Shown here in pieces: positions 13,659 through 53,777 of a stretch of DNA of 64,000 bases (the stretch's first letter is position 1; every line of letters starts with the position of its first letter). Origin of the DNA: Planctomycetota bacterium (GTDB lineage: Bacteria; Planctomycetota; UBA1135; GCA-002686595); contig DUCM01000018.1 of the NCBI GenBank assembly GCA_012959785.1, forward strand, positions 62,001 to 126,000, given 5' to 3'. The notes under the pieces are model-generated. The model had not been told where the DNA came from. It made no database searches and was given only the letters and a program-made list of their open reading frames with translations. The position numbers were made by a program, and so were the translations under genes.

Positions 13659-14174
13659 CTAGGGCAGGGTTTCCATCCCACGCAGTCGGCTGGCGATGTG
13701 CAGTTCGTAGGGCAGGGGCTGGCCCTCGGCGGGGGCGAATACGATTTCCTGGTGCGAGTCCGGTGCGAGTTCTTGGGCCATGTCGCAGGTGCGCAAAACA
13801 TCCATGACGCGACTCTCGAGGCGTCGGTCGGCGGGTATTTGCAGCACGATCTCCACCGCGCCGCCCTCCACCTGGGCGCGGGAGATCGTCGGTCGCTCGC
13901 AGGCGCCCACCACCCTCATGCGCATGGCCTGGCTTTCCACGGTCAGGGGGCAGCGGCCCACCAAACCCCACAAACGCACGCTATCGTGGGCTCTAAAGCG
14001 GATTTCCTCGACCTGGCAGCCCGGCGAGGAGAGGTCTGGACGGGGTAGACAGAGCAGAAAATGAGGCACCAGACGCTGCTCTTCGAGGCGTCCGCGCCAA
14101 TAGTTTGGGTCGAGCAACAAGGGGTGCAGGTCGCTCGGAAAATCTCGGGGAGAAGGTTGGGGCACGAGGCGCAA
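13659..14174 (-). CDS. Hypothetical protein
   Basis: This 171-residue reading frame is convergent with deoC and has ordinary composition for a soluble protein, with Arg, Leu, Val and Glu throughout, and no signal peptide or membrane segment. I do not recognise its family. The start is uncertain: TTG at 14174 or GTG at 14165, both without a strong ribosome binding site. A stretch with Asp, Pro, Asn, Tyr and Trp (LLLDPNYWRGRLEEQRL) and a later β-rich part (GGAVEIVLQIPADRRLESRVMD) are visible. It is listed because it fills an otherwise empty stretch with a protein-like sequence. Confidence 0.45.
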   Translation of the reverse strand: MRLVPQPSPRDFPSDLHPLLLDPNYWRGRLEEQRLVPHFLLCLPRPDLSSPGCQVEEIRFRAHDSVRLWGLVGRCPLTVESQAMRMRVVGACERPTISRAQVEGGAVEIVLQIPADRRLESRVMDVLRTCDMAQELAPDSHQEIVFAPAEGQPLPYELHIASRLRGMETLP

Positions 14175-14553: not shown

Positions 14554-16011
14554 ATGAGACCGTCGCCGTCCCCTTTGGCCCCCCTCGGGCTGACTTGTTG
14601 TTTGAGCTTCGTGGCCCTGTCACCGGCCCTGGCCGCAGCCGATGAAGAGGCCCAAGAGGACACCTCTTCGGTCTTCGTGATCCGCGCCGCGCAGGTCGTG
14701 GTACGGCCTGGAGAAGTGCTCGAAAACACCGCGATCCTCGTGCGCGATGGACGCATCGTGCGCATCGCTGCCGACCTCGAGACGCCCGACGGCGCCGTCG
14801 AGGTGCAAGGCGAAGTTGTTTGTGCGGGCTTCATCGACCCTTGGAGTGCCCTCGGTCTCGATGGAAGCGTGCTCGACGATCGCTCCAGCGACGCCGCCAC
14901 CCGCACGGCCGATGGCGTCGACCTCTTCAGCAATGACCATCTGCGTGCAGAGGCCCTGCGCGCGGGCGTGACCCTCGCTCGCCTGCAAGGCGGCTACCGC
15001 GCCGCCGTGGGCGGGTTGGGCGCCTTTGTGCGTCTGGACCCAGCCCTCGACTCAGCTTCTGAGGCCATTGTCGACGACAGCGCCGGCCTCGCCATGAGCT
15101 TGGGGCTTTCGCTCCCCGGTAGCATGCGCTTCAGCCGCGGCTCCGATGGATCCTTGCGCATGCTGAGCGGCGACCGCGCCGTGGATGTCTTCGACCGCGT
15201 CGAAGCCGTGGACCGCGTGGCGGCCGCCATCGAAACGGGCCGCCAGTACCGTGAGCGCGAGGTCGAGTACCGCTACGAACTCGAAGAGTGGCAAAAGGCC
15301 ATCGACGAGAAGACCCTCAAGCTCGAAAAGGACTTCAAGAAGGCCAAGAAGAGTCGCAAGAAGGACCAGGACAAGGCGGAGGACAAGGGCAAGGAGTTCA
15401 AGGAGAAGAAATACAAGGAGGACAAGCGCCCCCGCGCTCCCAAATTCAACGCCGAGCGCGCCGAGCTGGCGCGAGTGGCCGCGGGCGAGACCCCGCTGGT
15501 GGTGGAAGTTCACCGCGCCTCCGAGATCCGCAACCTACTCGAAGCCACCAAGGGCTTCACCCGCTTGCGCCTGGTGATTGCTGGTGCCAGCGAATCCTTG
15601 AGCGTGGCCGCAGAACTCGCCGAGCGCTCGGTGCCCGTGATCGTCTGGCCTTCCCTGAGCGGCACCAGTCGACCCGATGAGTTGAGCGCCAGCGACCTGT
15701 CCCTGGCCGGCAACCTGGCGGCGGAGGGCGTGACCGTCTTGCTCGGCAGTGGGGGGCGGGACGCTGCAGCCGCCCGCGACCTGCCCTTGCTCGCGGCTCT
15801 CGCCGTGGGCCACGGCCTCGACCCCGAGTTGGCCTTCAAGGCTCTGACCTCCCTCTCCGCGGAGACCTTCGACTTGGCGGACCGCCTCGGCAGCGTCGAA
15901 ATAGGCAAGGACGCCGACCTGTTGGTTCTCGACGCCATGCCCTTCCATCCCGGCGCAAGCGTGCGCTATGTCTTCAGCGGCGGTCGCCTCGCCATCACCC
16001 CGGAGAACTGA
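14554..16011 (+). CDS. Secreted amidohydrolase-like protein, no metal site, Lys-rich insert (array member 1)
   Basis: This 485-residue protein has a signal peptide (residues 1-29) and the outline of the amidohydrolase superfamily: an N-terminal β-sandwich half (VFVIRAAQVVV, ILVRDGRIVRI), a barrel and the C-terminal signature DRLGSVEIGKDADLLVLD. The β1 metal motif HxH is replaced: GFIDPWSAL at residues 92-100. It therefore probably cannot bind the usual zinc pair and is likely non-catalytic or altered. Residues about 262-299 are a long polybasic, coiled-coil-like insert rich in KK and EK pairs. The start has a clear AGGAGA ribosome binding site. It is the first gene of the array, three bases before member 2. 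Confidence 0.8.
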   Translation: MRPSPSPLAPLGLTCCLSFVALSPALAAADEEAQEDTSSVFVIRAAQVVVRPGEVLENTAILVRDGRIVRIAADLETPDGAVEVQGEVVCAGFIDPWSALGLDGSVLDDRSSDAATRTADGVDLFSNDHLRAEALRAGVTLARLQGGYRAAVGGLGAFVRLDPALDSASEAIVDDSAGLAMSLGLSLPGSMRFSRGSDGSLRMLSGDRAVDVFDRVEAVDRVAAAIETGRQYREREVEYRYELEEWQKAIDEKTLKLEKDFKKAKKSRKKDQDKAEDKGKEFKEKKYKEDKRPRAPKFNAERAELARVAAGETPLVVEVHRASEIRNLLEATKGFTRLRLVIAGASESLSVAAELAERSVPVIVWPSLSGTSRPDELSASDLSLAGNLAAEGVTVLLGSGGRDAAAARDLPLLAALAVGHGLDPELAFKALTSLSAETFDLADRLGSVEIGKDADLLVLDAMPFHPGASVRYVFSGGRLAITPEN

Positions 16012-16014
16012 TCC

Positions 16015-17148
16015 ATGCTGACTCTTCTATTGACTGCGGCCAGCCTGGCTCTGGGCGGCGAGAGCCCTCCGCCGGTTGTGCCGCCCGAGACCCTGGGTAG
16101 CCCCAAGACGGTCTTTGCCGGAACCGTGACCGCTTTCAAGGCCAGCCGTCTCTACCTCGGCGACGGCCGGATCCTCGAACCCGGCGTGCTGATCGTCAAT
16201 GACGGCATCATCACCCGCGTGGGTGGTGACCTCGAAATCCCTTCCGGCGCGGCCCTGATCGAACACGAGGGTTGCATCACACCGGGGCTTATCGCCTTGC
16301 ACTCTACCGACGGAGTCGGTGCCGAGCTCAGCGACACGACTCGCGTGGCCTTGCCCGATGCCGACGCGAGCCACGCCTTCCAGCCCCTCGACCATGACTT
16401 CGCCCGGGCGCGGGCAGCGGGTATCACTGCCCTGGTCCTCGCCCCCAGCATCACCTCCCTCGTGGGCGGCCAATCCACCGTGGTTAAGACCCACGGCGGC
16501 ACCATCGTCAAGCGCGGCGCCCACCTCGCCTTGGGCCTCTCCAGCGACGCGTTGAACTCGGGCCGCTTTCCCACCAGCTACGATGGCGCCCTGGGCGAAC
16601 TCAAGCGACTGTTCTCCGATCCAGAAGGTCCCATCGCCCGCGCCGTGGCTGGCAACCTGCCGGTCCTGATGGCGGTGAACACCCGCGCCGAAACGCGGCG
16701 CGCTCTACGCTTTGCCGCTGAATTTCAACTCAAGGGTGCCCTCTACGGGTCGACCTGGGCCGAAGACCTCAGCTTGGAGATCGGGGAGTCCGGCTTGGCT
16801 GTCATCTGCGATCCCTTCGATGTAGGTGATTCGGCACGCAGCGTGCGCGCGGTGCTGGCTCTCGCCAAGGCTGGCGTACCCTTCGGCTTTGGACTCGACG
16901 CCCCGGGCAGGCATCCCGACTGCCTGCGCTTTGGTGCCGCCCTTTGCGTGCGCGCAGGACTGGACCCGCAGGTAGCGCGTCGCGCCCTGACTTCTGACGC
17001 GGCGAGCATCGCCGGTGTCGCGGGACGCATCGGCCGTCTGGCCCGCGGCCTCGATGCTGACCTGGTGCTTTGGAGTGCCGACCCGATTCAACTCACGAGT
17101 TCCGTGGAAGCCGTCTACATCGACGGCCAGCGAGTTACCCAGCACTGA
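16015..17148 (+). CDS. Secreted amidohydrolase-like protein, degenerate site (array member 2)
   Basis: This 377-residue exported protein (signal peptide about 1-14) has the amidohydrolase β-sandwich (LYLGDGRILEPGVLIVNDGII) and the C-terminal GRIGRLARGLDADLVLWS signature. The metal motif reads GLIALHSTDG (91-100), with only one His where HxH is expected, and no later ordered set of two His and one Asp is evident. A family element, LVGGQSTVVKTHGG, aligns with the Lys-containing strand of the intact members. It overlaps member 3 by one base (TGATG), so translation is coupled. The substrate and any activity are unknown. Confidence 0.78.
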   Translation: MLTLLLTAASLALGGESPPPVVPPETLGSPKTVFAGTVTAFKASRLYLGDGRILEPGVLIVNDGIITRVGGDLEIPSGAALIEHEGCITPGLIALHSTDGVGAELSDTTRVALPDADASHAFQPLDHDFARARAAGITALVLAPSITSLVGGQSTVVKTHGGTIVKRGAHLALGLSSDALNSGRFPTSYDGALGELKRLFSDPEGPIARAVAGNLPVLMAVNTRAETRRALRFAAEFQLKGALYGSTWAEDLSLEIGESGLAVICDPFDVGDSARSVRAVLALAKAGVPFGFGLDAPGRHPDCLRFGAALCVRAGLDPQVARRALTSDAASIAGVAGRIGRLARGLDADLVLWSADPIQLTSSVEAVYIDGQRVTQH

Positions 17149-18347
17149 TGATGACCCTCTCATTTTTGATCCTGCCCCTGCTTTCTTCGGTGGCCACAGC
17201 GGCCCCCGTGGCGGCGGACCTTTCCGTCCATGCCAAGGTCGTCTACACCGCCACTGGCGAACGGGTTGAAAACGCCCGCGTCTCCATTTCGGACGGCAAA
17301 ATCGTGGCCATTACTCCGGGTGTTGATGCCCGCGATGGCGAGACCAGCGTCCTGGCCATCACGCCGGGCATGATCGACCTCAGCGCCCACGCGACCATGG
17401 GCTCGCGTTCGGTGGAGGAAACCACTGAGATCCGCCCGGGCTTTCGTGTGGCGAACACCCTCGATGTCTTCAGCAAGTCCTGGGAGCGGCACCTCTACAG
17501 CGGCGTGACCACGGTCATGGTCCACCCTTACGACAACAACTGCATCGGCGGCTTGTCGGTGGTGCTCAAAACCGGCGGAGCCGAGAACATTGCGGCACGC
17601 ACGATCAAGGCCGATGCAGCCCTGCGCGGTGCCCTTGGCGACCAACCTTCGCAGCGCAACCACCCGGCCTTTGGCCGGCCCACCGACTTCTACTCGCGGC
17701 GACCTACCACCCGCATGGGTGTCGAGTGGGAATGGCGCAAGGCCATGTACGACGCGCTCTACGCCGAAGGCCAAATAGACAGCGACACGGCGATCCTACG
17801 CCGCGCCCTCAGCGGCGAACTGACCATCTTCGCGCAAGCCTGGGCCACCCAGGACATTCGCACCATCTGCTACCTCAAGGAAGAGATGGCCCGAGAAGGC
17901 CATCCCAACATGCGCATCATCGTGGACGCCGCAGCCGAGGCCTGGCGTGAGCCGGGGCTCTTGGTGCGCACCAAGACCGGCGTGATCCTGCCACCCTACG
18001 AACACGAAGGACGCACTGAAGACAACGCCTTCTTCGCCCTTTCTAGCGCCAAGCAACTGGTCGACCTGGGCGTGGCCGTGGCCCTTTCCAGTCACACCGC
18101 AGCGGGCCCCGGCGCCACCTTGGGGTCCCAAGCGGGATTTGCCCAGCGCGGCGGCTTGAGTTTCGCAGAAGCCCTGGCGGCGGTTACCACGACACCCGCG
18201 CGAATGGCCGGTGTCGAGAATCGCGTGGGCACCATCGAAGCGGGCAAGGACGCCGACCTCGCCCTTTGGAACGGCACCCCTTTTGAACTGACATCAAGAG
18301 TCGTGGGCGTTGTCCTCGACGGAAAGATGGTTCTGGACCCGCGCTGA
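17148..18347 (+). CDS. Secreted amidohydrolase-like protein, degenerate site (array member 3)
   Basis: This 399-residue protein has a signal peptide (MMTLSFLILPLLSSVATAA). β1 reads PGMIDLSAHATMG (73-85), so the first metal His is Ser and the pair is displaced. The strands that carry His in active relatives read IFAQAWATQD and MRIIVDAAAEAW, and the β8 strand reads VALSSHTAAG with no Asp, so the barrel looks non-catalytic. The C-terminal VGTIEAGKDADLALWNGTP is standard for the superfamily. The start ATG overlaps the previous stop. A 79-base gap follows, the largest within the array, so a second promoter there is possible. Confidence 0.78.
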   Translation: MMTLSFLILPLLSSVATAAPVAADLSVHAKVVYTATGERVENARVSISDGKIVAITPGVDARDGETSVLAITPGMIDLSAHATMGSRSVEETTEIRPGFRVANTLDVFSKSWERHLYSGVTTVMVHPYDNNCIGGLSVVLKTGGAENIAARTIKADAALRGALGDQPSQRNHPAFGRPTDFYSRRPTTRMGVEWEWRKAMYDALYAEGQIDSDTAILRRALSGELTIFAQAWATQDIRTICYLKEEMAREGHPNMRIIVDAAAEAWREPGLLVRTKTGVILPPYEHEGRTEDNAFFALSSAKQLVDLGVAVALSSHTAAGPGATLGSQAGFAQRGGLSFAEALAAVTTTPARMAGVENRVGTIEAGKDADLALWNGTPFELTSRVVGVVLDGKMVLDPR

Positions 18348-18426
18348 GGGGCGCGCTCCCTCAACCTGAACACAGCACAACGAACACAAGCGACAAGACC
18401 CTTTCTCGACTTCGCACCTAACACCC

Positions 18427-19947
18427 ATGAACCAGCAACTCTTCCCCACGCTTTTCGGCGCCCTGGTGGCCCTCTCCCTGGCCTCAGCGGCTTCTGCCCA
18501 GGCAGGCGACAGCAACATCGTGATCAAGGCCGGCAAGGTCATCACCAACGCTGGCGAAACCATTGAAAACGGCACGATCGTGATCCAAAACGGTCGCATC
18601 ACCGCCGTTGGCCAGGGCATCGAGTACCCCTGGAACGCCGAGGTCAAGGAGTACCCCGGCTCGGTGGCTTTCCCCGGCTTTGTCGAGGCCCACAGCTCCC
18701 GAGGTATGGACCGCGCCAACGAGAACATCGATGTGGCCGCCTTCTTGAATGTGAAGGACTCCATAGACCCGGTGAGCTTTTACTTCGAAGACGCCCTGCG
18801 CGCCGGCGTCACCACGATCAATGTGCAACAGGGTGACGAGTGTGTCGTTGGCGGCATGGGTTACATCGTCAAGCCCACGGGCATGACCGTGGAAGAAATG
18901 ACCGTGCGGCCCAACTCCGGCCTAGCCATGTCGGCCACACCCAAACGCGGCAAGTCCCGTGCTACCCAGGCTCAATCCTTGCGCGAGGTCTTCAGTGGCC
19001 TGCAACGCTATCTCGAGGACACCGTGGGCGATAAACGCCAGGGCCTCGATCACGCCACCCGTGAAGCCCTGTACCAGGGCCGCGAAGCCGACGAGGAAAC
19101 AGCCAAGGGGCGTTCCATGGCCGGCAGCACCTGGAAAGTCGACGGACTCGAGCTGATTCCGCGCTGGGAGATCGACGAGAAGCAGGCACCGCTTTTGAAG
19201 ATCGTCGAGGGCAATCAGCGCATGTTTGTTTTCTGCGATTCGGCCCAGGCCGTTGCTTTGGCCCTTGAGGTTGCCACGGACAATGGTTTTTTGCACCGCA
19301 CGAGTTTGGTGCTCGAAGGCACTTCGTGGAAGGCCGCAGACATGATCGCCCAACGAGGAGTGCCGGTCATCCTGAGCGAGAGCCTGATGTACCGCGAGCG
19401 CGATCCCGTGAGCGGCGAGATGATCGAGACCTTTGTGCCCAAGGTCTTCCAGGACAAGGGTGTGCGGTTTGCTTTGCGCGGCGGCAGCACGGCCAGCAAA
19501 GGGCTCTGGTATCAAGCAGCCCTCTGCGTGGGTTATGGACTCACCCGCGACCAGGCCCTCGCCGCCACCACCACGACATCCGCCGATCTGATCGGCTTGG
19601 GCGACCGCATCGGTAGCCTCGAAGTGGGCAAGGACGGCAATGTGGTCATTTTCTCCGGCGATCCCTTGAGCGTGAAGTCCTTCGTGGAGTTCGTCGTGAT
19701 CGAGGGTGAACTCGTCTACGACCGCAGCAACGACACCCGCGTGCTGCACCTCGACACTGGGGCTCAGCCGGAAAACACCGCACCCCACGATCCCAACGCC
19801 GACTTCAAGCCCCATGGCAAGGCGGAAGTGCCGGACGATGATGGGTCCGATACCGACGCTGGCGAGAATGAAGAAGAGCATGAAGAAGACGAAGAGTCGG
19901 ATGCCGACGACAAACACGACGACGACAAGGAGAACGAGGACAAGTAA
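18427..19947 (+). CDS. Secreted amidohydrolase-like protein with polyacidic tail (array member 4)
   Basis: This 506-residue protein has a signal peptide (about 1-26, ending ASAQA). The β1 motif is GFVEAHSSRG (84-93), lacking the second His, and the strands corresponding to the metal His residues read MFVFCDSAQAV and TSLVLEGTSW. It ends with about 45 residues dominated by Asp and Glu (DDDGSDTDAGENEEEHEEDE onward). The C-terminal barrel signature DRIGSLEVGKDGNVVIFSGDP is intact, so the protein should fold like an amidohydrolase while probably lacking metal chemistry. The acidic tail may bind cations or a basic partner (inference). Confidence 0.78.
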   Translation: MNQQLFPTLFGALVALSLASAASAQAGDSNIVIKAGKVITNAGETIENGTIVIQNGRITAVGQGIEYPWNAEVKEYPGSVAFPGFVEAHSSRGMDRANENIDVAAFLNVKDSIDPVSFYFEDALRAGVTTINVQQGDECVVGGMGYIVKPTGMTVEEMTVRPNSGLAMSATPKRGKSRATQAQSLREVFSGLQRYLEDTVGDKRQGLDHATREALYQGREADEETAKGRSMAGSTWKVDGLELIPRWEIDEKQAPLLKIVEGNQRMFVFCDSAQAVALALEVATDNGFLHRTSLVLEGTSWKAADMIAQRGVPVILSESLMYRERDPVSGEMIETFVPKVFQDKGVRFALRGGSTASKGLWYQAALCVGYGLTRDQALAATTTTSADLIGLGDRIGSLEVGKDGNVVIFSGDPLSVKSFVEFVVIEGELVYDRSNDTRVLHLDTGAQPENTAPHDPNADFKPHGKAEVPDDDGSDTDAGENEEEHEEDEESDADDKHDDDKENEDK

Positions 19948-19949
19948 CC

Positions 19950-22790
19950 ATGCTCTGCACCCTGCTTTTCTCTCTCGGCGCGGGACTGGCGCCTTCTGAC
20001 GCCGACCTCGTCGCCGTTCAGGCCGGCACCATCCATGCGGTGGACGCCGGACGCATCATCACCGGTGGCGGCACAGTCATCCTGAAGAACGGCAAGATCC
20101 TGGCCGTGGGCCAGGCTCTCGAAATCCCCGCCGGCGCGCGGATCGTGGACTACGGTCCCGACGCGGTCATCGTGCCGGGCTTCGTGGCGGCGGACAGTTC
20201 CTTCGGCGGGCGTAGTGCCTCGGAGCGCACGGCTTCGCCAACTTTGGCCGCCATTGACGAGTTCGATCTCTGGGGTAACTACGCCTCGACCCTCAAGGGT
20301 GGCGTAACCAGCGTCTACATTTCCCCTGCATCGAGCCGCTTGATAGCGGGTCAGGGTGCAGTGGTGAAACTCGGTGGCGAACCGGGCGTGGGACGCATCC
20401 TCGCCAGCGCGGCTTCGATCGAGGGTTCGATCTCCGCCGACGCGCGTCGCACACCCGGCTACTGGGAACCGCCGATTCCGGCCACGGTGGATGTGGGTAT
20501 GGGCGTTGAAGCGCCCCAACTGCCGCGCACCACCATGGGCGCCATGATCGCCCTCGGTGAACTCCTCGAGCTCGCCGCGGAGCCCGTCCCCAGCGAAGAG
20601 TACGGCCCCTACACCGGCGACTCCTTGGCCGAATTGATCGGTGCTGGCGTTCCCTGGCGCATGCGTGCCGAGACCGCCAACGAGATCAGTGCCATGATCG
20701 GGTTCGCGGGCAACCACGACCTGCCGCTGGTGCTGCGCGGCGCGAGTGCCGGCGGACCTCTGGCCGTTTCCATCGCCGACTCCGGCGCGGCTGTCATCGT
20801 CTACTCCGTGCCGCGACCGAACTCGTCTCTGCGCGATGCTGGCAAGGGCCGTGACGACACCTGGCCCGATATGGAATTGGCCGCCAAGCTGGCTGCCGCG
20901 GGAGTTCGCGTGGCCATCGCGCCACCCGCGAATTCCACCACCAGTGCTCTGCGCTTCCATGCCTCCCTCGCCCGCTCCAACGGACTTGGCGCCGCCGGGG
21001 CCCTGGCTTCGGTGACCCTCGACGCGGCTCGGATTCTGGGCGTCGACGACCGCGTCGGCAGCCTCACCGCTGGCAAGGACGGCGACCTGGTGGTGCTCAA
21101 CGGAGCCCCCATGGACGCCACCTCCAGCGTACTGGCCACCTGGGTGGATGGCGAGGTGGTTTGGAAGGCGAGCGAGAGAGGCGCCGTGGTGCTTGAGGTC
21201 GACGAACTCTTCATCGGCGACGGACAGGTGCTCGAGCCCGGGCAATTGCTCATGGACGGCGGCAAGATCGTCGAGGTCGGCCGCCGCGTTTCCCACCCCA
21301 AGGGTTGCACCGTGGTGCGCGGCGCCGCGGCCATGCCAGGCATGATCGACACCTACGGCCATTTGGGACTCGAAGGTTCGACCAAGACTCCGCGCGGCAA
21401 CTACAAGTACAAGCGCATGATCGAAGCCGGCGACTTTGCCGACCGGCGCGTGGCCCAGGCGGGCGTGACCTGTGTGGTCATGACGCCCCGCGGCGCGGGC
21501 GGCTCTGGCGTGCCGGCGGTGGCTTACAAGCCCGCCGGTGTAGACCTAGACACGATGATTGTGGCTGACCCCGCGATCATGCACCTCGTCTGGTCGAACT
21601 CCGACCGTCTCAAGGCCGGTGCCGGCGTCGTCTCGGTGCTCGAAAAGGCCAGCGAGTACAAGAAGGGATGGGACGAGTACGAGGCCGCCATCCTTGATTG
21701 GGTCGCGCCTCCTCTTGAGCCTGAAGAAGAGGCAAAAGAAGACGAGGACGAGGAAGAAGACGAAGACACCGACGAGAACAAGGACGACGACGACAAGAAG
21801 AAAAAGAAGAAGAAGAAAAAGCGCAAGAAGAAGGGTGAGGACGATGACCCACCCTTCCCCGTCACCGGCATTTGGCTCGACCAAGTCGAGACCCTTGAGG
21901 GGGGAGCCTCGCGCCTGCGTTTCCAGTTGCTCGAGACCGACGGCGCCATTGAAGGCTTCTTGCGTTGCGACGAGCTCTCTGCTCAGTTGATTGAGCTCAA
22001 GGGTGAGCGCGTGAAAAAAGAAGTCACCTTGAAGGGCCTTGGCCTCCGAGGTGCCGTGGTCTTTAGCGCCAAGACCAAGGAGAAAAAGCTCACAGGAACC
22101 GTGGTTCTCGCTGACCTGACCCTCGAATTCACCGCAGAACGCACTTCGATCGAGTACCCCCTCGCCGCCCGCAGCGAGCGCCGCAAGCCCGATGCGGAAG
22201 AGAAGCAAAAGGACCCCAAGGGCAAGCCCAAGATGCCGCAGCGAAAGGACGAACTCGAGCCCTTCAAGGCGGCCATGGAAGGCCGCGCCTCGGTGGTGGT
22301 TCGCGTGGAGCGCGACGATGAGATTCTCGCTTGCGTTCAGGCCTTTGAAGACCACGGCATCAAACCGATCCTCTTTGGCGCCAACGATGCCTGGAAAGTC
22401 AGTGAGAAAATCGTCGGCCGTGTGGCTGGCGTCCTGCTCGATCACCGCGTGATCTATTCGGATTCACACATGGGTACGGCCCAGCGCAACCGCTACGCCG
22501 AACTCGCGGGCGCCGGCCTCGCGGTGGCCTTTCATTCTTCGGCCGAGGAGGGCGCTGCTGATCTCGCTCTGATCGCCGCTTACGCCGTGAGCCAGGGCAT
22601 GAGCCCCGAGGGGGCCTTGCACGCCCTGACCCTTGGCGCCGCGCGTATGTTTCACATCGACGATCGCGTGGGCAGCCTGCGAGCCGGCCTCGATGCGGAT
22701 GTGCTCTTGCTCAAGAGCGCTCGGATCGACTCGCTCGTGGGTGTCGAACGCGTCTGGGTCAACGGCCGCGAAGTGCGCTTGCATCCCTGA
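19950..22790 (+). CDS. Secreted double amidohydrolase-like protein with Lys/Asp-rich insert (array member 5)
   Basis: This 946-residue protein contains two amidohydrolase-like modules. The first (to about residue 405) has GFVAADSSFG at 77-86 and the second has GMIDTYGHLG near 463-472. Neither has HxH. Each module ends in a DRVGSL-x-AGxDxD signature. Between about 588 and 630 a run of Glu/Asp is followed by a near-pure Lys stretch encoded by AAG/AAA repeats. After it comes a β-rich segment (VTGIWLDQ to LEFTAERTS) resembling the accessory domain of the 51849-53777 protein. It is probably exported (signal peptide about 1-18). A two-base gap separates it from member 4. Confidence 0.78.
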   Translation: MLCTLLFSLGAGLAPSDADLVAVQAGTIHAVDAGRIITGGGTVILKNGKILAVGQALEIPAGARIVDYGPDAVIVPGFVAADSSFGGRSASERTASPTLAAIDEFDLWGNYASTLKGGVTSVYISPASSRLIAGQGAVVKLGGEPGVGRILASAASIEGSISADARRTPGYWEPPIPATVDVGMGVEAPQLPRTTMGAMIALGELLELAAEPVPSEEYGPYTGDSLAELIGAGVPWRMRAETANEISAMIGFAGNHDLPLVLRGASAGGPLAVSIADSGAAVIVYSVPRPNSSLRDAGKGRDDTWPDMELAAKLAAAGVRVAIAPPANSTTSALRFHASLARSNGLGAAGALASVTLDAARILGVDDRVGSLTAGKDGDLVVLNGAPMDATSSVLATWVDGEVVWKASERGAVVLEVDELFIGDGQVLEPGQLLMDGGKIVEVGRRVSHPKGCTVVRGAAAMPGMIDTYGHLGLEGSTKTPRGNYKYKRMIEAGDFADRRVAQAGVTCVVMTPRGAGGSGVPAVAYKPAGVDLDTMIVADPAIMHLVWSNSDRLKAGAGVVSVLEKASEYKKGWDEYEAAILDWVAPPLEPEEEAKEDEDEEEDEDTDENKDDDDKKKKKKKKKRKKKGEDDDPPFPVTGIWLDQVETLEGGASRLRFQLLETDGAIEGFLRCDELSAQLIELKGERVKKEVTLKGLGLRGAVVFSAKTKEKKLTGTVVLADLTLEFTAERTSIEYPLAARSERRKPDAEEKQKDPKGKPKMPQRKDELEPFKAAMEGRASVVVRVERDDEILACVQAFEDHGIKPILFGANDAWKVSEKIVGRVAGVLLDHRVIYSDSHMGTAQRNRYAELAGAGLAVAFHSSAEEGAADLALIAAYAVSQGMSPEGALHALTLGAARMFHIDDRVGSLRAGLDADVLLLKSARIDSLVGVERVWVNGREVRLHP

Positions 22791-22794
22791 CACC

Positions 22795-24165
22795 ATGGCA
22801 CACACCTCCAACATGCGAAGAACTGGATCGGCTCTGATTGCCCTCTCCCTGACGCTCGTCCTGCCCCTTTGGGCGGGTGGAGCGGAATCAAAGCTCACCT
22901 CAGCGGCGTCCGCCGCATCCCCAGCGAGCGCCGCACCCGCGCCTCTCTTGCAACCCGGCGAACAAGGCGGCCGCGGTCTTGCCATTCGAGCCGCGAAGGT
23001 GCTCAGCGTGCCTCTCAAGGGCAGGCAATTCCTCGACAACGCCGTGGTGCTCATCAAGGACGGCAAGATCGAAGCCCTCGGTCCCGCGAACTCGACGCCC
23101 ATCCCTGCGGGATATGAAGTGCTAGATGTCGGTGACAACTGGCTGATGCCCGGCATGATTGACCTGCACAGCCACATTGCGGGCACCTTCGACATCAACG
23201 ACACGGTCTACCTCACGAACCCCGGTTGCCGCGCATCTGTTGCGGTGCGGCCAGGGAACTCAAGGCTCAAGATGGGGCTTGCGGGCGGCGTCACCACGAT
23301 CCTGTTCATCCCTGGCTCGGGCTCCAACATCGGCGGCCAGGGCGTTCTCTACAAGACCGGCGCCGCTGACTACGAGGCCGGCCTCGTGCGCGATCCAGGC
23401 TCGATGAAGCTAGCCCAGGCGGGCAACCCCGAACGCTATCTGTTCCGCGTGGGCCGCTCGTTTATGAACTGGAACACGCGCAATACCTTGCAGCGCGGCG
23501 TGGCCTACGCCAAACGCTGGGAGGCCTTTGAAAACGGGGAGGCTGCGCAGCCCCAGCGGGATATCCAGTTCGAGGTGGTGCGTTTGCTCTACAACAAGGA
23601 GACTCAGATATCGACCCACACCCAGATCTACCAGGTTGTGAACATGACCTTGACCATGGTGGCCAAGGAGCTCGGGCTGCCAGTCTACATCGACCACGGC
23701 ACCTTCGACGGCTGGCGCGCTGGCGCACGGGCCAAGGAACTCGGCGTCAGCGCCATTATCGGGCCCCGTGCTATCGATCCGCCCTCCAGTCGTAACTTTC
23801 GCTTTTCCGGTTCGCTCTCCGCGAGGATTCAGGGTTGCGCCGCGGGCTATCAGGAAGCGGGACTGGAGATGGTCGGCTTCAACACCGATGCGCCGGTGAT
23901 TCCCCAGGAAACCTTGCAACTGCAAGCGGGCATGGGTGGGCGCTATGGCTTTCGTTGCGACGAGTTGCAGGCCGTGCGCGGCCTCACCATCGTGCCCGCA
24001 GTGACGGCCGGCCTCGGCCACCGCTTGGGCAGTATCGAGCCCGGCAAAGATGCCGACTTGCTGGTGGTCACCGGAGACCCGGCCGACCCGCGCACTTCGG
24101 TGGAGGCGGTTTACACCGATGGCGAAAAGGTCTACGACCCAAGAGTGGAGCGGCGTCGCTGGTAA
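22795..24165 (+). CDS. Secreted metal-dependent amidohydrolase, intact site (array member 6)
   Basis: This 456-residue exported protein (signal peptide about 1-30, after an NMRR n-region) has a complete amidohydrolase metal site by eye: His125 and His127 (MIDLHSH), a candidate bridging Lys187 (VLYKTG), His275 (ISTHTQ), His301 (YIDHGTF) and Asp365 (FNTDAPVI). It resembles secreted imidazolonepropionase-like or dipeptidase-like hydrolases, but the bond cleaved cannot be told. Its closest visible relative is the next gene, with shared STHTQ-YYQVV, DHG-FD-WR and FNTDAPVIP motifs, so the two probably arose by duplication. The ATG at 22795 is four bases after member 5 and gives a proper signal peptide. 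Confidence 0.85.
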   Translation: MAHTSNMRRTGSALIALSLTLVLPLWAGGAESKLTSAASAASPASAAPAPLLQPGEQGGRGLAIRAAKVLSVPLKGRQFLDNAVVLIKDGKIEALGPANSTPIPAGYEVLDVGDNWLMPGMIDLHSHIAGTFDINDTVYLTNPGCRASVAVRPGNSRLKMGLAGGVTTILFIPGSGSNIGGQGVLYKTGAADYEAGLVRDPGSMKLAQAGNPERYLFRVGRSFMNWNTRNTLQRGVAYAKRWEAFENGEAAQPQRDIQFEVVRLLYNKETQISTHTQIYQVVNMTLTMVAKELGLPVYIDHGTFDGWRAGARAKELGVSAIIGPRAIDPPSSRNFRFSGSLSARIQGCAAGYQEAGLEMVGFNTDAPVIPQETLQLQAGMGGRYGFRCDELQAVRGLTIVPAVTAGLGHRLGSIEPGKDADLLVVTGDPADPRTSVEAVYTDGEKVYDPRVERRRW

Positions 24166-25470
24166 ATGACTCTTCTCTGCCCGAGCAACGCACAGCGCGC
24201 TTCAGTTTCCAAGGTGGGGACTGGGGCGGCTTGGGCTTGTGCCCTGGCGCTCCTCGGTTCATCGGCTCTTGCGACGAGCGCGACCCCTGAGGGCCTCGCC
24301 ATCCTGGCGGCCAAGGCTCTGGTCTGCGACCTCGCAGGCTCAGGTCCCGTTGAGTGCGCCGTGGTGCTCGTGAAGGATGGCCTTATCGAATCCGTGGGCG
24401 TGCAGGGCGAGCTGGAGATTCCCGCCGGCTACGCTGTTCACGACGGCGGTCCGCTTTGGATTATGCCAGGCATGATCGACCTGCACAGCCATGTGGGTGG
24501 ACTGCGCGGATACAACGACATGGTCTTCCAGGTCAATCCGGGTCTGCGGGTCAGCGCCACGGTGGCGGCCGGCAACGCGCGGCTCTCGCGTCCCATAGCG
24601 GCGGGCATCACCACCATCCTGTACATCCCGGGTTCAGGCACGAACATTGGCGGTCAGGGCATCTTGATGAAAACCCACGAAGGCACCTTCGAGGAGGTCG
24701 TGGTGCGCAACCCCGGTTCCCTCAAGGTTGCCCAGGGCGACAACCCCAAGCGTTGGGGTTATGGCATGCAGCGGGGCCTGATGAACCATCACATCCGCTA
24801 CACCATGCGCCAGGGCAAAGCCTACGCCATGCGCTGGGCGGCTTATGACGAGGGCCGGGGGCCGCTCCCCGAGCGCCACATCAACCTCGATGTCTTCCGC
24901 GATCTGTACGCCAAGAAGATCGCCATCTCGACCCACACCCAGTACTACCAGGTGGTGCTCGCAACCTTGCGCATCCTGCGCCGCGAGACAGGCTTTCCGG
25001 TTTTCATCGACCACGGCTCCTTCGATTCCTGGCGACTGGGCCCCATGGCCCAAGAGTTGGGCGTGGCGGCGATTCTTGGCCCGCGCCAGGTGGTCTACCA
25101 CCGCACCTATCGCAACAACACTGACGGCGCGGTGCAGGGCAGCGCCTGGGGTTTTCAGAAGACTGGCGCCTTGATGATCGGCTTCAACACCGACGCGCCG
25201 GTGATTCCCGAAGAGGAGCTGCCCCTGCAATCGGCCATGGGTGTGCGCTATGGCTTTGACAATTCCCGCATGGGTGCCGTGCGCGGTTTGACCATCGTGC
25301 CCGCCGTGGTGGCGGGCATCGGGGACGAGCTTGGCAGCATAGAGATTGGCAAGCTGGCCGATTTGGTTCTCGTTAGCGGCGACCCTTCCGATCCCCGCTG
25401 TCGGGTGGACCGGGTCTGGATCGCGGGTCGGCTTGAGTACGACGCCACTGAGGGAGGCCAGAGATGGTAA
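24166..25470 (+). CDS. Secreted metal-dependent amidohydrolase, intact site (array member 7)
   Basis: This 434-residue protein is closely similar to array member 6 along its length. Metal-site residues are His107 and His109 (MIDLHSH), a Lys in ILMKTHEG, His257 (ISTHTQYY), His283 (FIDHGSFDSW) and Asp343 (FNTDAPVIP). A hydrophobic N-terminal stretch (GAAWACALALLGSSALATSA) acts as signal peptide. The start ATG directly follows the TAA of member 6 (TAAATG). The last codons overlap the start of member 8 by seven bases, so the three intact enzymes are translated as a tightly coupled set. Reaction unknown; a peptide- or cyclic-amide-type substrate is a guess. Confidence 0.85.
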   Translation: MTLLCPSNAQRASVSKVGTGAAWACALALLGSSALATSATPEGLAILAAKALVCDLAGSGPVECAVVLVKDGLIESVGVQGELEIPAGYAVHDGGPLWIMPGMIDLHSHVGGLRGYNDMVFQVNPGLRVSATVAAGNARLSRPIAAGITTILYIPGSGTNIGGQGILMKTHEGTFEEVVVRNPGSLKVAQGDNPKRWGYGMQRGLMNHHIRYTMRQGKAYAMRWAAYDEGRGPLPERHINLDVFRDLYAKKIAISTHTQYYQVVLATLRILRRETGFPVFIDHGSFDSWRLGPMAQELGVAAILGPRQVVYHRTYRNNTDGAVQGSAWGFQKTGALMIGFNTDAPVIPEEELPLQSAMGVRYGFDNSRMGAVRGLTIVPAVVAGIGDELGSIEIGKLADLVLVSGDPSDPRCRVDRVWIAGRLEYDATEGGQRW

Positions 25471-26666
25471 AGCGCCCCTTCGGATTCGTCGCCGTGCTCT
25501 TACTCGCCGGAATCACCAGCGCGGACCGGCTTGCCATTCGCTGTGGCAAGCTTTTGACCATGAATGCCGAGGACGAGATCTTCTCGCCGGGCATGGTCTG
25601 CATCGAAGACGGCCAGATCACCTATGTGGGCCCGCCCCGCGATCAATCGGCCTCGACGGATGTGATCGATGCGCCGAACACCTGGCTTGCTCCGGGCCTG
25701 GTGGACCTGCACACCCACATTCACAGCGGCGGTTTTGGCGGCATCAATGACATGGTGCGCTCGGTGAATCCCGAACTGCGCTCGTCGGCCGCCGTGCGGC
25801 CTGACAACCGCAAGATGCAGGTGGCTTGCTCCGGCGGTGTCACCACCCTCTTCGGCATCCCCGGCAGCGGCACGAACATGAGCGGATTCGGCGTGCTCTA
25901 TAAAACCAAACGCGACTGGCGCTTCGAGAGCACGGTCTTTGCCAATCCCGGCGGCCTCAAGATCGCCCAGGATTCCAACCCCGAGCGCCGCGCTGGCAGT
26001 TTTGCCTTTGGAAACAACCGCGCATCGATGGGTTGGACCCTCGAAAACATCTGTGCGCGCGCCCTGGGCGCCGAGCGCCAGGGCCGCAGCGATCCAGCTT
26101 TGCACGATTTACAACGCGTCTTGACCCGCGAACTACCGGTGCTGATCCACACCGCGGGTAGTTCCGGCGTGGCCAACACGGCGCGCATGTGGCACAACAA
26201 GTACAAGACCCGTTGCGTCATTAGCCATGGATCGTTCAACGGCTGGAAAGTCGCTGCCGCCATCGCCGAGTGGGGCGTGCCCGTGAACCACGGCCCTCGC
26301 ACCATGGATTTCAGGCGCAGCCGCAATGGCCGCATCAACGGAGGCGCGGCGGAATATGTCAAGGCGGGCGTGCGTAACTTTTCATTGAACACCGACTCCA
26401 GCGTCATGCCCCAGGAAGAGTTTTTCCTGCAAGGAGCCATGAGTGCGCGGCTCGGAGCGGGCTCCTATGAGATGCTGCAAGCCTTGACTATCCATCCCGC
26501 ACGGGTCTTTGGCATCGACGACCGGGTGGGCAGCCTGGAAGTTGGCAAGGACGCAGATGTGGTGATGCACAGCGGCGACCCCCTCGATCCCCGCACGCGC
26601 GTGGAGCGCGTTTGGATCGAAGGTGCCACCGAATACGACCGAGCCATTGACAAACAGAGATTCTGA
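25464..26666 (+). CDS. Secreted metal-dependent amidohydrolase, intact site (array member 8)
   Basis: This 400-residue protein starts with a hydrophobic segment (FGFVAVLLLAGITSA) acting as signal peptide. The metal site is His83 and His85 (VDLHTHIH), Lys in VLYKTKRDW, His229 (LIHTAGSS), His255 (ISHGSFNGW) and Asp311 (LNTDSSVMP). It shares the PGSGTN-GxGVLYKT element with members 6 and 7 but differs around the β5 His (no STHTQ), so it is a diverged duplicate probably with a different substrate. The start codon lies inside the end of member 7. Together members 6-8 are the only members of this array with the full His/His/His/His/Asp set. Confidence 0.85.
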   Translation: MVKRPFGFVAVLLLAGITSADRLAIRCGKLLTMNAEDEIFSPGMVCIEDGQITYVGPPRDQSASTDVIDAPNTWLAPGLVDLHTHIHSGGFGGINDMVRSVNPELRSSAAVRPDNRKMQVACSGGVTTLFGIPGSGTNMSGFGVLYKTKRDWRFESTVFANPGGLKIAQDSNPERRAGSFAFGNNRASMGWTLENICARALGAERQGRSDPALHDLQRVLTRELPVLIHTAGSSGVANTARMWHNKYKTRCVISHGSFNGWKVAAAIAEWGVPVNHGPRTMDFRRSRNGRINGGAAEYVKAGVRNFSLNTDSSVMPQEEFFLQGAMSARLGAGSYEMLQALTIHPARVFGIDDRVGSLEVGKDADVVMHSGDPLDPRTRVERVWIEGATEYDRAIDKQRF

Positions 26667-26681
26667 ACCGAGACCCAAGAA

Positions 26682-27923
26682 ATGATGATCCTCAACACTC
26701 TTCTTCTGGCTACGAGCCCGCTCCTGGCGGCGCAACCGGCTGTGCCGGGCGGCGGCACCCTGGCCATCAAGGTTGGCCGCGCCGAAACCGTGTCCGATGG
26801 CACCGTGCTACACGCCGTGATTCTAATCGAGGACGGCCGGATCGCCGTGGTGGGCGAGGACCTGCCCATCGAACGGGGTATTCCCGTGGTGGATCTGGGC
26901 CCCGACTCGGTGGTGATCCCCGGGCTAGTCAACGCCTATTCGCGCCAGGGCATGGACAGTCGCGGCAGCAACAAGTCGAACCCCGGCCTGCGCGCTTCTG
27001 GCGAGCTGTACCCCGCCTTTCGTGACTACAAGAAACTGCTCGAGGCAGGGGTTTGCACACTGGGCCTCTATCCCGCCGGCAATGGTATTCCTGGCCGCGC
27101 CGTGGCGGTGCGCACCCAGGGCTCGACACCCGCGGAGATGATCCTGGCGGACGATGTCTACCTAAAAATTCTCCTGCGCTCATCGGCGAGTTCCAAGAGC
27201 ATGATCACCAAGGGCTTCGAGGAGGCTGACGAGTACGCGAAGAAGGAAGCCAAGGCCCGCGAGAAGTGGGAGAAGGCCAAGGAGAAGGCGGACAAGAAGA
27301 ACAAGAAGAAGAAAAAGGACGAGCAGGAAGATCCCGGGCCCGGTCCTTTCGTCGCCCCCCAGAAAGACCCCAAAGCCGCCGCCTTCCAGGAGTTGCGCGA
27401 CCGCGAGCTCTCGGCCCTGATCTCGATCCGCTCGGCGGGGGATTTCCTGCACCTCTTCGATGCCATCGGCGAGGAGCAATTTGACTTCGCCTTACGCGTG
27501 CCCCTCAGCCGCGAGACCAACCTGTTCCTGGTCAAGCGCGAACTCAAGGAGCTTGGCTGCGCGATCATCATGGAGCCCAGGTTGAGCCTGCATCCCGCCA
27601 CTCAGCGCCAGCGCAACCTGCCCCACGAGATGGTCAAGGCCGGCATGCAACTTGTCTTGATTCCCTCTTCCGACAGCCTCGATAGCCACCAAAAGTGGTT
27701 GAACGACACAGGCGTCCTGGTTGGCGCTGGTCTGCCCAGCCACGATGCCCTGCGCGCCATGACCCTCGCGCCCGCCAAGGTCTTGGGCCTCGCTGAACGC
27801 CTGGGTTCGATCTCTGCCGGCAAGGACGCCAACATGCTGTTCTTCACAGGAGATCCCTTTGAACCGTCGAACAAAGTCAAGACCGTCATGCTCGAGGGCA
27901 AAATCGTCTTCGGAGAGTTGTAA
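26682..27923 (+). CDS. Secreted amidohydrolase-like protein, no metal site, Lys-rich insert (array member 9)
   Basis: This 413-residue protein has a short signal peptide (about 1-17). The β1 motif reads GLVNAYSRQG (81-90) with no His, and no β5/β6 His pair is evident. Residues about 186-216 form a strongly basic stretch (KAREKWEKAKEKADKKNKKK followed by KKDEQED), matching the position and style of the insert in array member 1. The C-terminal part ends with ERLGSISAGKDANMLFFTGDP. Two in-frame ATGs (26682, 26685) are equivalent. It is probably non-catalytic and may serve in binding or scaffolding (inference). Confidence 0.78.
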   Translation: MMILNTLLLATSPLLAAQPAVPGGGTLAIKVGRAETVSDGTVLHAVILIEDGRIAVVGEDLPIERGIPVVDLGPDSVVIPGLVNAYSRQGMDSRGSNKSNPGLRASGELYPAFRDYKKLLEAGVCTLGLYPAGNGIPGRAVAVRTQGSTPAEMILADDVYLKILLRSSASSKSMITKGFEEADEYAKKEAKAREKWEKAKEKADKKNKKKKKDEQEDPGPGPFVAPQKDPKAAAFQELRDRELSALISIRSAGDFLHLFDAIGEEQFDFALRVPLSRETNLFLVKRELKELGCAIIMEPRLSLHPATQRQRNLPHEMVKAGMQLVLIPSSDSLDSHQKWLNDTGVLVGAGLPSHDALRAMTLAPAKVLGLAERLGSISAGKDANMLFFTGDPFEPSNKVKTVMLEGKIVFGEL

Positions 27924-27927
27924 TCCC

Positions 27928-29406
27928 ATGAGACTACTGATGAATACACGCAACCTGGGCCTCACTTGCCTGCTGCTCTGGCCCTTCATGGCGCTTGGCG
28001 CCGCGGCTCCCCTTGGGCTTGCCCTTGGCGATGACGACGAAAAGGGCAAGGAAGAAGAAGAAGAGAAAGAGTCCGAGCCCATTCCCGAAGAGGACAAGGA
28101 CGCTTACTTCGCCCTCCTCAACGCCGACATCTACACCGGCACCGGGACCCTCTTGCGCGGTGCCGGCTTGCTCAGCAAGAACGGCAAGATCGTCGAGATC
28201 GGCTACGAGATTCTTATCCCCGGCCGCGACTATTACGCCGACATCGAGGAAGACGAGCGCGACTTTCGGGTCGAGATCCTCGACGCTGGGGGCATGCGCG
28301 TCTACCCCGGCCTGGTGGCTATCAGTTCTTCGGGCTTGACCGGCGCCAGTGGCGATTTCAGGGATTCCATCGACCCCTTTTCGAGCAATATGATCCTGGG
28401 CCTCGCCGCGGGCATCACCAGCACCGGCCAGGGCCGAGCGGCGGTCAAGCTCAAGCGTTACATCAGCCAGGACCCGCCTCTGGCCTACGACTTTGACGGC
28501 GTTGTGCTGAGCAGCAAGACCTACGCTTCCATGAGCTGGTCAAGTAGCTCGGCCAAGCGTACGCTGCGCGAGAAATTCACCCGCGCCGCCGAGTACCTGC
28601 GCGAGTACCACCAGTGGCAAATCGATGTCAAGAAGGACAAGGAGCTCAAGGAGCCCAAGAAGAGCGGCGTCGACGGGTCCACCCTTGAGGTACTCAAGGG
28701 CGAGTTGCTGCCGCGCTTCCGCGCCGACGAACGCCTGGATCTTCTAGGTATCGCGCGTTTCGCCCAGGAGTTTGGCTTCCGTCCGGTGATCGACGGATGC
28801 CGCGAGGGCTGGACCGTGGCCGACGAACTCGGTCGCGCTGGAGCCATGGCGATTTTGACCGCCCGCGATCGACGCGACAAAGGCGAGGAACTCCGGCGCG
28901 AGGGCGGTTCGAGCATCGAGAACGCCACCCTTCTATCCGCGGCTGGCGTGCAGGTGGCCATCGTGCCCTCGTCCAAAGGCATCAGCCTGAGCGGTATCGT
29001 AGGCCGCGACATCATGCACCTGACGGTGGAAGTCGATTTCGCCATCCGCGGCGGCCTCTCCGAACGCCTGGCCCTCGATTCCATCACCCGTGTTCCGGCG
29101 CGCATGATGGGTATCTCCCATCGCGTGGGCACCCTCGAGGTGGGCAAGGACTGCGACCTGATCGTCACCGATGGCGACCTTTTGCACTACGAGACCTTCG
29201 TGCAGTATGCCGTTGTCGATGGCGACCTTGTGTACGACAAGCAGGACGAGCTCTACTACGCTCACATCCGACCCCGGCCCGAATCCTCCCTGGCCCCCGA
29301 GGAGACCCTCGACGCAGGCGAGAACGAAGGGTCGCAGGACGAGGATGAAGACGACGGCGACGGCGACGGCGACGAGGACGAGGAGAAAGAGGACGACGAG
29401 GAGTAG
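27928..29406 (+). CDS. Secreted amidohydrolase-like protein with acidic termini (array member 10)
   Basis: This 492-residue protein has a signal peptide (about 1-33) followed by an acidic stretch (GDDDEKGKEEEEEKESEP). β1 reads YPGLVAISSSGLTG near residue 125, with no metal ligand. A charged segment (YHQWQIDVKKDKELKEPKK) occupies the place of the Lys-rich insert of members 1 and 9. The amidohydrolase closing signature HRVGTLEVGKDCDLIVTDGD is present, followed by a C-terminal tail from about residue 461 that is almost entirely Asp and Glu. It is the last gene of the array, followed by a hairpin at 29410-29437. Confidence 0.78.
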   Translation: MRLLMNTRNLGLTCLLLWPFMALGAAAPLGLALGDDDEKGKEEEEEKESEPIPEEDKDAYFALLNADIYTGTGTLLRGAGLLSKNGKIVEIGYEILIPGRDYYADIEEDERDFRVEILDAGGMRVYPGLVAISSSGLTGASGDFRDSIDPFSSNMILGLAAGITSTGQGRAAVKLKRYISQDPPLAYDFDGVVLSSKTYASMSWSSSSAKRTLREKFTRAAEYLREYHQWQIDVKKDKELKEPKKSGVDGSTLEVLKGELLPRFRADERLDLLGIARFAQEFGFRPVIDGCREGWTVADELGRAGAMAILTARDRRDKGEELRREGGSSIENATLLSAAGVQVAIVPSSKGISLSGIVGRDIMHLTVEVDFAIRGGLSERLALDSITRVPARMMGISHRVGTLEVGKDCDLIVTDGDLLHYETFVQYAVVDGDLVYDKQDELYYAHIRPRPESSLAPEETLDAGENEGSQDEDEDDGDGDGDEDEEKEDDEE

Positions 29407-51848: not shown

Positions 51849-53777
51849 ATGACATTCAGTTCCTCCCCGGTCGCTCTTCTCGTCGTGGCGTTCTGCTTCG
51901 CAGCACCCCTCGGCGCACAGAATGTTCGCGACCCCCAGCCCACAGCCATTGTCGATGTGAGGCTCTCCAGCGACCCTGATGCGGCGCGGGTGGGAATCGT
52001 TCTTCGAGATGGGCGCATCGAACGCATCCTCGCGGAAGGCGAAGAGCCGCCGCCGGGCGTCTTGGTGATCGAGGGCGATGGGGCTCTGGCCCTGCCGGCT
52101 TTTATCGACGCCTACGCCACCAGCGGCTTCGAAGTTGGCGAGCGCGAGGCGGCGCCGGACATGGACACCGAGGTTGACGCCAATGTGCACATCGACATGC
52201 GACGGGCGAATCGCAAGGGATTGCGACCGAGCTTTCGCGTCGTGGACGCCCTCTCCATCGAAGAGGGCACAAGAGAGGGCTATCGCAACCAAGGTTTTGC
52301 CGCCCTGCACTCCTGCCCCGCGGGCGAGATCTTGGGCGGTTTGAGCGCCGTGATGACCCTGCGCGAAGCCAGTCTGCGGGAATGCATCGTGGCCGCGGAG
52401 GTCTTTGCCACAGCAGAATTCCGCGCGAGCGGCCGGGGCTATCCGCGCACCCTCATGGGCTATCACGCGCAACTGCGGCAGTTTTTTCTCGATGCCCGTT
52501 GGCAGGAACAGCGACTTGCACGCTACGCCTCCGGCGAGGCCGATCGGCGGCCGCCCTTCGATCCAGAACTCGAAGCCGCGGGGGAACTCCTGCGCGGCGA
52601 AAGGCGCCTCCTGTGCCGCGCGAACTCTGTCCGTGACATCCGCCGCTGGCTCAAGTTGGCCGAAGAGCACGGTCTGCGCATTGCCATCGCCGGCGGCGCG
52701 GAGGCCTGGAAGGTGGCGGCAGAACTGGCGCAAGCCCAGGTGCCGGTACTGCTCGAATTGGACTGGGGCAAGGAGGTCGAGGATCCCGACGCCGAAGAAG
52801 AGAGCGAGGCCGAGGACGCTCCTGATGGCGAAGAGACGGGTGCAGGCCCGGAGCAGGACGCTGAAGCGGAACCCGAGGCGGAGATAGGCACGGAGCCCAC
52901 GCCCGATGTCGCCCCCGAGCCCACGCAAGAGCCTGAACAAGAACAAGAGAAAGAACGCGAGGCCGCGCCAACCGACGAGCAGCCAGCTCCCGAGGAAGAG
53001 TCATCGGCAGAGCCAGAAAATGCCCTTGAGTACACCGAACCCATCGGCGTCCTGCGCGAGCGCCGGCGTTTGTGGGAACTCAAGCGTGACTGCGCCCTGC
53101 GTCTGGAAGAAGCGGGGGTGGTTTTCGCCTTCGGCTCGAGTGACTCTTCCTCAGCCGAGCTTATCAAGGGAGTTCGCGCCCTGGTGCAAGCGGGCCTCGA
53201 TGAGTCCATAGCCATCCGCGCCCTGACCCAAACGCCCGCGGCCCTATTGGGGCTGGAGCAACACCTCGGAGAACTGGCCCCCGGCTTTGACGCCGACATT
53301 GCCCTCTGGACTCTTTCGCCATTCAAGAAGAAGGCCCATCTCGACTGGCTCTTCATCGACGGTGCCGCTCACGAGTACAAGCGTGAAGACCAGGAGAACG
53401 GCGAGCCCGCGGAGGGCGTGGACCTCACGGGCGGTTGGAGTTTTTCCTACGAAGGTCAGGACGGCCCGCCTGCGACCATGGAACTCGTCATGGATGAGTC
53501 TGGTGCCGTGACCGGAACGCTCTCGTTCACCACGCCCGATGGAACTCCTGTGAGCAGTGCGGTGGAAGGCAACGTGAGAGGGGCCGATTTCAGCTTGCAT
53601 GTGGACCTCGATATCTCGGGCTGGTCCGCAAAGCTGAGCATTGAGGGCCAGGTCGACGGCGACGAGATATCGGGCGACGCCACCTGGAAATACTCCGGCG
53701 GCGAGGACTCCGAGGCCTTCGACGGCAAGCGCTTGCCCGAAGACGACAAGCCCGAAGACAACAAGAGCGTGCGCTGA
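51849..53777 (+). CDS. Secreted amidohydrolase-like protein with acidic insert and C-terminal β domain
   Basis: This 642-residue exported protein (signal peptide about 1-23) resembles the array at 14.5-29.4 kb. β1 reads LPAFIDAYATSG near residue 80, without HxH, so it is probably non-catalytic. Residues about 307-396 are a Glu/Pro-rich insert. A normal end of the amidohydrolase module (LGELAPGFDADIALW) is followed by about 110 residues of β-rich accessory domain (GGWSFSYEGQDGPPATMELV, MDESGAVTGTLSF) resembling a segment of array member 5. It overlaps the next gene by one base (TGATG). Confidence 0.78.
   Translation: MTFSSSPVALLVVAFCFAAPLGAQNVRDPQPTAIVDVRLSSDPDAARVGIVLRDGRIERILAEGEEPPPGVLVIEGDGALALPAFIDAYATSGFEVGEREAAPDMDTEVDANVHIDMRRANRKGLRPSFRVVDALSIEEGTREGYRNQGFAALHSCPAGEILGGLSAVMTLREASLRECIVAAEVFATAEFRASGRGYPRTLMGYHAQLRQFFLDARWQEQRLARYASGEADRRPPFDPELEAAGELLRGERRLLCRANSVRDIRRWLKLAEEHGLRIAIAGGAEAWKVAAELAQAQVPVLLELDWGKEVEDPDAEEESEAEDAPDGEETGAGPEQDAEAEPEAEIGTEPTPDVAPEPTQEPEQEQEKEREAAPTDEQPAPEEESSAEPENALEYTEPIGVLRERRRLWELKRDCALRLEEAGVVFAFGSSDSSSAELIKGVRALVQAGLDESIAIRALTQTPAALLGLEQHLGELAPGFDADIALWTLSPFKKKAHLDWLFIDGAAHEYKREDQENGEPAEGVDLTGGWSFSYEGQDGPPATMELVMDESGAVTGTLSFTTPDGTPVSSAVEGNVRGADFSLHVDLDISGWSAKLSIEGQVDGDEISGDATWKYSGGEDSEAFDGKRLPEDDKPEDNKSVR

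Follow-up and report, generated by a model that had tools for sequence, protein, structure and literature searches.

Arrangement of the array and state of its metal sites

We identified ten plus-strand genes that form one block at positions 14554-29406 of the window, the 64,000-nucleotide stretch of planctomycete DNA analysed here. By their ORF coordinates all are arranged head-to-tail with intergenic gaps of -7 to +22 bases, the exception being the 79 bases between g3 and g4. Each of the ten proteins scores above the cut-off for the Pfam family Amidohydro_1 (PF01979), and the 946-aa product of g5 contains two such stretches, giving the ten tandem genes and eleven modules that an earlier note on this DNA had described. 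The genome (3.67 Mb) contains 23 PF01979 stretches in total, and because 11 of the 23 sit in the array the clustering is far beyond chance. The metal ligands were read against an alignment with PDB 3OOQ and comprise an HxH pair on beta1, a lysine on beta4, histidines on beta5 and beta6, and an aspartate on beta8 (HHKHHD in this order). The genes are listed here with the residues that inactive modules carry in these six columns; the second histidine column was read from sequence, and all start codons are inferred.

g1, 14554..16011, + strand: amidohydrolase fold, putatively exported, without the metal site (DPWSA) and with a K/E-rich insert (residues ~230-295); columns W-A-A-E-G-G
g2, 16015..17148, + strand: inactive (ALHST), its class having lost ligands latest and most gradually; columns H-T-A-A-G-D
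g3, 17148..18347, + strand: inactive (DLSAH); columns S-H-R-Q-A-H
g4, 18427..19947, + strand: inactive (EAHSS), best-conserved inactive class, acidic C-terminal tail; columns H-S-A-F-L-G
g5, 19950..22790, + strand: fused inactive pair of g5a (AADSS; columns D-S-E-R-G-P) and g5b (DTYGH; columns Y-H-H-R-G-S)
g6, 22813..24165, + strand: active class, full HHKHHD ligand set (DLHSH)
g7, 24166..25470, + strand: active class, full ligand set (DLHSH), 52% identity to g6
g8, 25464..26666, + strand: active class, full ligand set (DLHTH), about 37-38% identity to g6 and g7
g9, 26682..27923, + strand: inactive (NAYSR), with a K-rich insert; g4 is its sister class; columns Y-R-K-S-R-S
g10, 27928..29406, + strand: inactive (AISSS), acidic stretches at N- and C-terminus; columns S-S-S-R-G-S

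The earlier claim that HxH is lost in seven of the ten proteins also held, and can be refined. The pair is missing from eight modules in these seven proteins and present in g6, g7 and g8, and one histidine remains in g2 and g4 (the first) and in g3 and g5b (the second). In the 3OOQ alignment the beta4 lysine, the beta5 and beta6 histidines and the beta8 aspartate are mostly gone in the eight inactive modules and complete in g6-g8. Across distant classes the ligand columns rest on automatic alignment.

The fold expected of these proteins, a TIM barrel plus a composite beta-sandwich built from strands of both termini, was confirmed by the ten Pfam matches and by models of g4 and g5. Both models have 3OOQ as their top PDB match: g4 (pLDDT 88, pTM 0.83) with a target TM of 0.83, and g5 (pLDDT 87, pTM 0.68), which consists of two barrels, with a target TM of 0.81. 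The g5 model contains a disordered acidic/lysine run at residues 593-633, and g5b carries an all-beta insert of ~95 residues (~640-733, positions 21860-22150) with a G-W start. A segment resembling this insert is also seen at the C-terminus of x1, a gene outside the array described below. For the majority of the ten proteins, g6-g8 among them, the best named NCBIfam match is to COG1228-type prolidases and arginine carboxypeptidases. No named enzyme family, Xaa-Pro dipeptidase (NF051886) included, is matched above its curated cut-off; the best array protein reaches 80.3 bits against 500 bits.

Each array gene encodes an N-terminal hydrophobic stretch, and in the 76 distinct arrays described below a simple hydropathy test is passed by 61-97% of the members of each class. 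Sec export of the products is likely and the N-termini are consistent with it. The claim in the earlier note that all products are exported is supported by N-terminal hydropathy only, and export remains inferred. In the same 76 arrays, K/R-rich inserts occur in 71% of g1 and 63% of g9 members, acidic tails occur in 42% of g10 and 29% of g4 members, and neither is ever found in active genes. Opposite charges as assembly signals are suggestive but not universal among the inactive classes, and this idea was set aside.

Distribution, age and selection

Relatives of g5 were identified in all 80 related genomes sampled. The array sample comprised forty arrays, then 80 loci from a scan of GTDB contigs, and then further Planctomycetota families. 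The contig scan used a narrow g4 alignment, the wide g4 alignment having no usable stretch; with g5 alone as the query it returned no matches. The 80 scanned loci are nearly all from Planctomycetota and include those on the complete chromosomes of the cultured strains Pla86 and Pla163, some from Phycisphaerae MAGs, and one from an Armatimonadetes MAG. Once near-identical copies were removed 76 distinct arrays were left, and further full arrays were found later.

The order g1-g2-g3-g4-g5a+g5b-[1-4 active genes]-g9-g10 is found by profile-based calling in 101 of 101 loci with both ends, and no class is missing from any of them. The earlier note had proposed, as the test of a system, that intact and degenerate members should keep one order in related genomes, and this test was passed, with each class also monophyletic (see below). 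The ordered arrays span more than 20 Planctomycetota families and one Armatimonadetes MAG, and a second Armatimonadetes genome (L214) has g1-g4 at a contig end. The number of active copies ranges from one (23 of the 76 arrays) through two (24) and three (16) to four (13), and is never zero; G522, a complete genome of 3.84 Mb on one contig, carries every class of the array and a single active gene. Of 392 Planctomycetota genomes sampled, 99 from 24 families carry the system as judged by a g10 profile at E <= 1e-75; generic relatives begin near 1e-62 with this profile. The array is missing from many Planctomycetota families in this search and is not universal. These figures cover a sample of Planctomycetota and Armatimonadota, and other phyla were not searched systematically. 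The sole interruption seen is in L222, where g9 and g10 are separated by about 3 kb of other sequence.

A divergent ORF (13659-14174, minus strand) without a Pfam match lies directly upstream of the array and is kept at 46 array loci of the same family. Downstream of g10 is a glycosyltransferase family 3 gene (TrpD2-like, 29539-30663), a neighbour at 38 same-family loci; in other families LpxA-like and peroxiredoxin-like genes flank the array instead. We found no conserved non-amidohydrolase partner gene. Since neighbours are kept only within a family, the flanking genes give no functional clue. The ATCase catalytic gene is absent among the conserved neighbours and scanned flanking genes. A promoter scan was uninformative, with 1 site where 2.0 were expected.

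Each of the nine classes (active, g1, g2, g3, g4, g5a, g5b, g9 and g10) forms one clade in a tree built with 186 modules of 20 arrays. The class label changes eight times over this tree, the minimum possible, compared with a mean of 132.9 for shuffled labels. Sister relationships link g4 with g9 (support 100) and g5a with g10 (support 96). Because every class has a single origin in the tree, the duplications are older than the divergence of the sampled families. For seven of the nine classes, L144, the Armatimonadetes array, falls with Phycisphaerae MAGs, a placement that could reflect lateral transfer of the whole block or contamination of the MAG. Values of dN/dS are 0.03-0.13 in all classes (NG86, close pairs) and as low in the inactive classes as in the active one. 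The array does not meet the test for a decaying pseudogene cluster, which looked for broken frames or relaxed selection. Stop codons and random degeneration were among the checks proposed in the earlier note, and decay is excluded because the frames are intact and dN/dS is low.

Modules of the active class have all six ligands in 33 of 33 cases in a first alignment and in 176 of 177 over all arrays, the lone exception being cut at its N-terminus. Over all arrays g1, g3, g5a, g9 and g10 keep 0-2 of the six ligands, and g4 mostly keeps two, one histidine and the lysine being retained in most arrays. In g2 the count spans 0-6, and in g5b 0-4, with g5b at 4 of 6 in three arrays. The complete site in g2 of L067 is the sole one among the inactive classes, and g2 of L182 has 5 of 6. 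Sites in g2, and partly in g5b, were thus lost late and repeatedly while the genes were retained and an active gene was always left. This pattern fits a hetero-oligomer with redundant active sites.

No replacement or alternative metal site was found in any inactive class when conserved polar residues were inspected in the class alignments, and alternative ligands in all members, a further check of the earlier note, were not seen. Of the 20 polar residues invariant in active modules, an inactive class retains only 2-4, and its own invariant polar residues are very few (H and T in g9; T, T and D in g2). Conservation at the former catalytic positions falls to background, and fixed polar residues at these sites are scarce or absent. 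Overall conservation is 0.50-0.58 in the inactive classes versus 0.59 in the active class, and most Gly/Pro positions are retained. Selection in the inactive classes acts on the fold and not on the catalytic site.

Fusions and simpler relatives

Fusions of adjoining modules occur in several families. The g5a-g5b fusion is present in every array, and one genus has g1-g2-g3 fused in three of its genomes (L180, L210, L211). Other natural fusions join g1-g2 (L179, L183, L203), g3-g4 (L198), g4-g5 (L173) and g9-g10 (L182).

Relatives outside the array mostly consist of an active module beside, or fused to, one or more inactive ones. The window contains a second locus of this kind:

x1, 51849..53777, + strand: separate inactive module outside the array, start codon inferred
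x2, 53777..56398, + strand: one protein in which an active module (HHKHHD) precedes an inactive one with 2 of 6 ligands

By sequence, x1/x2 is the simple triad version of the active-plus-inactive design. Similar inactive-active-inactive triads are found in L207, L215 and L216, and in a single frame in L208. Active-inactive pairs are found in L202, L204, L206 and L213, and are fused in L186 and L205. The inactive modules of these simpler relatives keep 0-2 of the six ligands. A triad also occurs on a Hymenobacter plasmid (L217, NZ_CP095062, Bacteroidota), where the active member has 5 of 6 ligands by automatic alignment. An Acetoanaerobium record encodes a complete active protein, and stand-alone active relatives exist (3OOQ, L218). 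Judged by sequence comparison only, the array is likely an elaboration of this widespread design.

Proposed function, alternatives and known systems

The array is likely an ancient operon encoding an exported, metal-dependent amidohydrolase, a hetero-oligomer in which non-catalytic subunits accompany the active ones; its export, assembly, size, stoichiometry, catalysis and substrate are all inferred. One to four genes (here g6, g7 and g8) would supply subunits with the complete HxH/Lys/His/His/Asp site. The eight non-catalytic modules in g1, g2, g3, g4, g5a-g5b, g9 and g10 would keep the fold as fixed structural or regulatory partners, probably packing on each other and on the active subunits via the surfaces used for self-association in the superfamily. 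The array probably originated by duplication within an oligomer whose redundant catalytic sites were later lost, always sparing one or more. The putative substrate is amide-type, perhaps a peptide, N-acyl amino acid or cyclic amide. This class is inferred by analogy with distant relatives, the prolidase and arginine carboxypeptidase structures.

The fold, motif state, fixed order, single class origins, purifying selection, fusions, and pairing of active with inactive modules in simpler relatives are established, and co-conservation of active and inactive paralogues under selection, as a hetero-oligomer requires, is met. The fusions and co-linearity indicate linked function, not contact. There are no interaction, expression, activity or complex-model data, and physical association and a single transcript are inferred. 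With one to four active copies per array, the gene counts imply no fixed stoichiometry. The multi-protein extracytoplasmic machine suggested in the earlier note is still an inference, though the fusions and the active/inactive pairs in relatives make it the best reading. A bolder version, to which we give clearly less than even weight, is a new class of bacterial extracytoplasmic machine, pseudo-symmetric and made of 9-12 amidohydrolase-fold modules. In it, distinct, ancient and dead paralogues, each with fixed neighbours, would hold eight positions and active enzymes a few.

Several other explanations share part of this evidence. The inactive modules could be separate exported binding proteins that bind related substrates or products and pass them to the active enzymes from outside any enzyme complex. 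They have the same fold without catalytic ligands and all appear exported, and co-transcription and co-inheritance would be equally expected. However, inactive modules are found fused with one another and, among the simpler relatives, with active modules. Additionally, conservation in the old pocket is no higher than background and fixed polar residues in it are few or absent, which would be odd for eight dedicated binding pockets, and we regard this explanation as unlikely. There is still less reason to view the inactive modules as enzymes with another mechanism or metal site and the array as independent hydrolases. The complete g2 site in L067, 5 of 6 ligands in g2 of L182, the His and Lys of g4 in most arrays and 4 of 6 in three g5b modules favor this view. 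However, no inactive class has a shared replacement ligand set or more than very few invariant polar residues, and neither the fixed order nor the fusions would be expected.

Recent tandem duplication under neutral decay would account for paralogues in tandem and for the loss of many catalytic residues. It is all but excluded, as the classes predate the divergence of the sampled families, frames are intact, dN/dS is 0.03-0.13 and no class is missing in arrays with both ends. Constructive neutral evolution alone remains possible. In this framework (PMC7982386) a ratchet would have made inactive parts of the assembly obligatory with no gain over a homo-oligomer. The gradual, repeated site loss in g2 and g5b with at least one active gene always left is as a ratchet predicts, and stand-alone active relatives exist (3OOQ; L218). 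However, the class-specific inserts and motifs and the fixed set of eight are left unexplained. The ratchet concerns origin and is compatible with the hetero-oligomer as the explanation of present function.

Pseudoenzymes usually occur singly or in twos. Here eight dead paralogues of one fold persist in fixed order in more than 20 families, alongside one to four live ones. The simpler relatives with one active and one or more inactive modules represent stepping stones toward the array, which lets one test how homo-oligomers turn into obligate hetero-oligomers and why dead subunits persist.

We found no published account of the array in the literature searched; a 2026 preprint on secreted metal-dependent amidohydrolases covers other proteins. 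The closest solved relative in sequence and fold is 3OOQ, an uncharacterised Thermotoga maritima amidohydrolase (E 8.9e-39 to g7 and 1.8e-32 to g4) with the same ligand set as g6-g8. However, it is a single active protein of unknown function, and its record shows no inactive partner. COG1228-type prolidases and arginine carboxypeptidases (3N2C, 3MTW, NF051886) have the fold in common with the array proteins, but they are mostly single-gene enzymes, and the array proteins score at most about 80 versus 500 bits. The collapsin response mediator proteins (dihydropyrimidinase-related proteins) are amidohydrolase-superfamily pseudoenzymes, and they match g4 weakly in sequence. However, these are eukaryotic cytoskeletal proteins without an operon of active partners.

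The closest functional parallel is the Pseudomonas ATCase, in which an inactive pseudo-dihydroorotase (pDHO) is required for assembly and activity (PMC7053772). There too a catalytically dead amidohydrolase-superfamily subunit is needed by its partner. However, pDHO is one dead cytoplasmic subunit with an unrelated partner enzyme, whereas the array has eight dead modules together with active relatives of the same fold, all apparently exported. The 20S proteasome and ClpP/ClpR combine active and inactive paralogues within one assembly, though their fold and function are unrelated to those of the array. Were the bolder, pseudo-symmetric reading correct, the array would follow a logic comparable to that of the eukaryotic CCT and the proteasome, having evolved separately.
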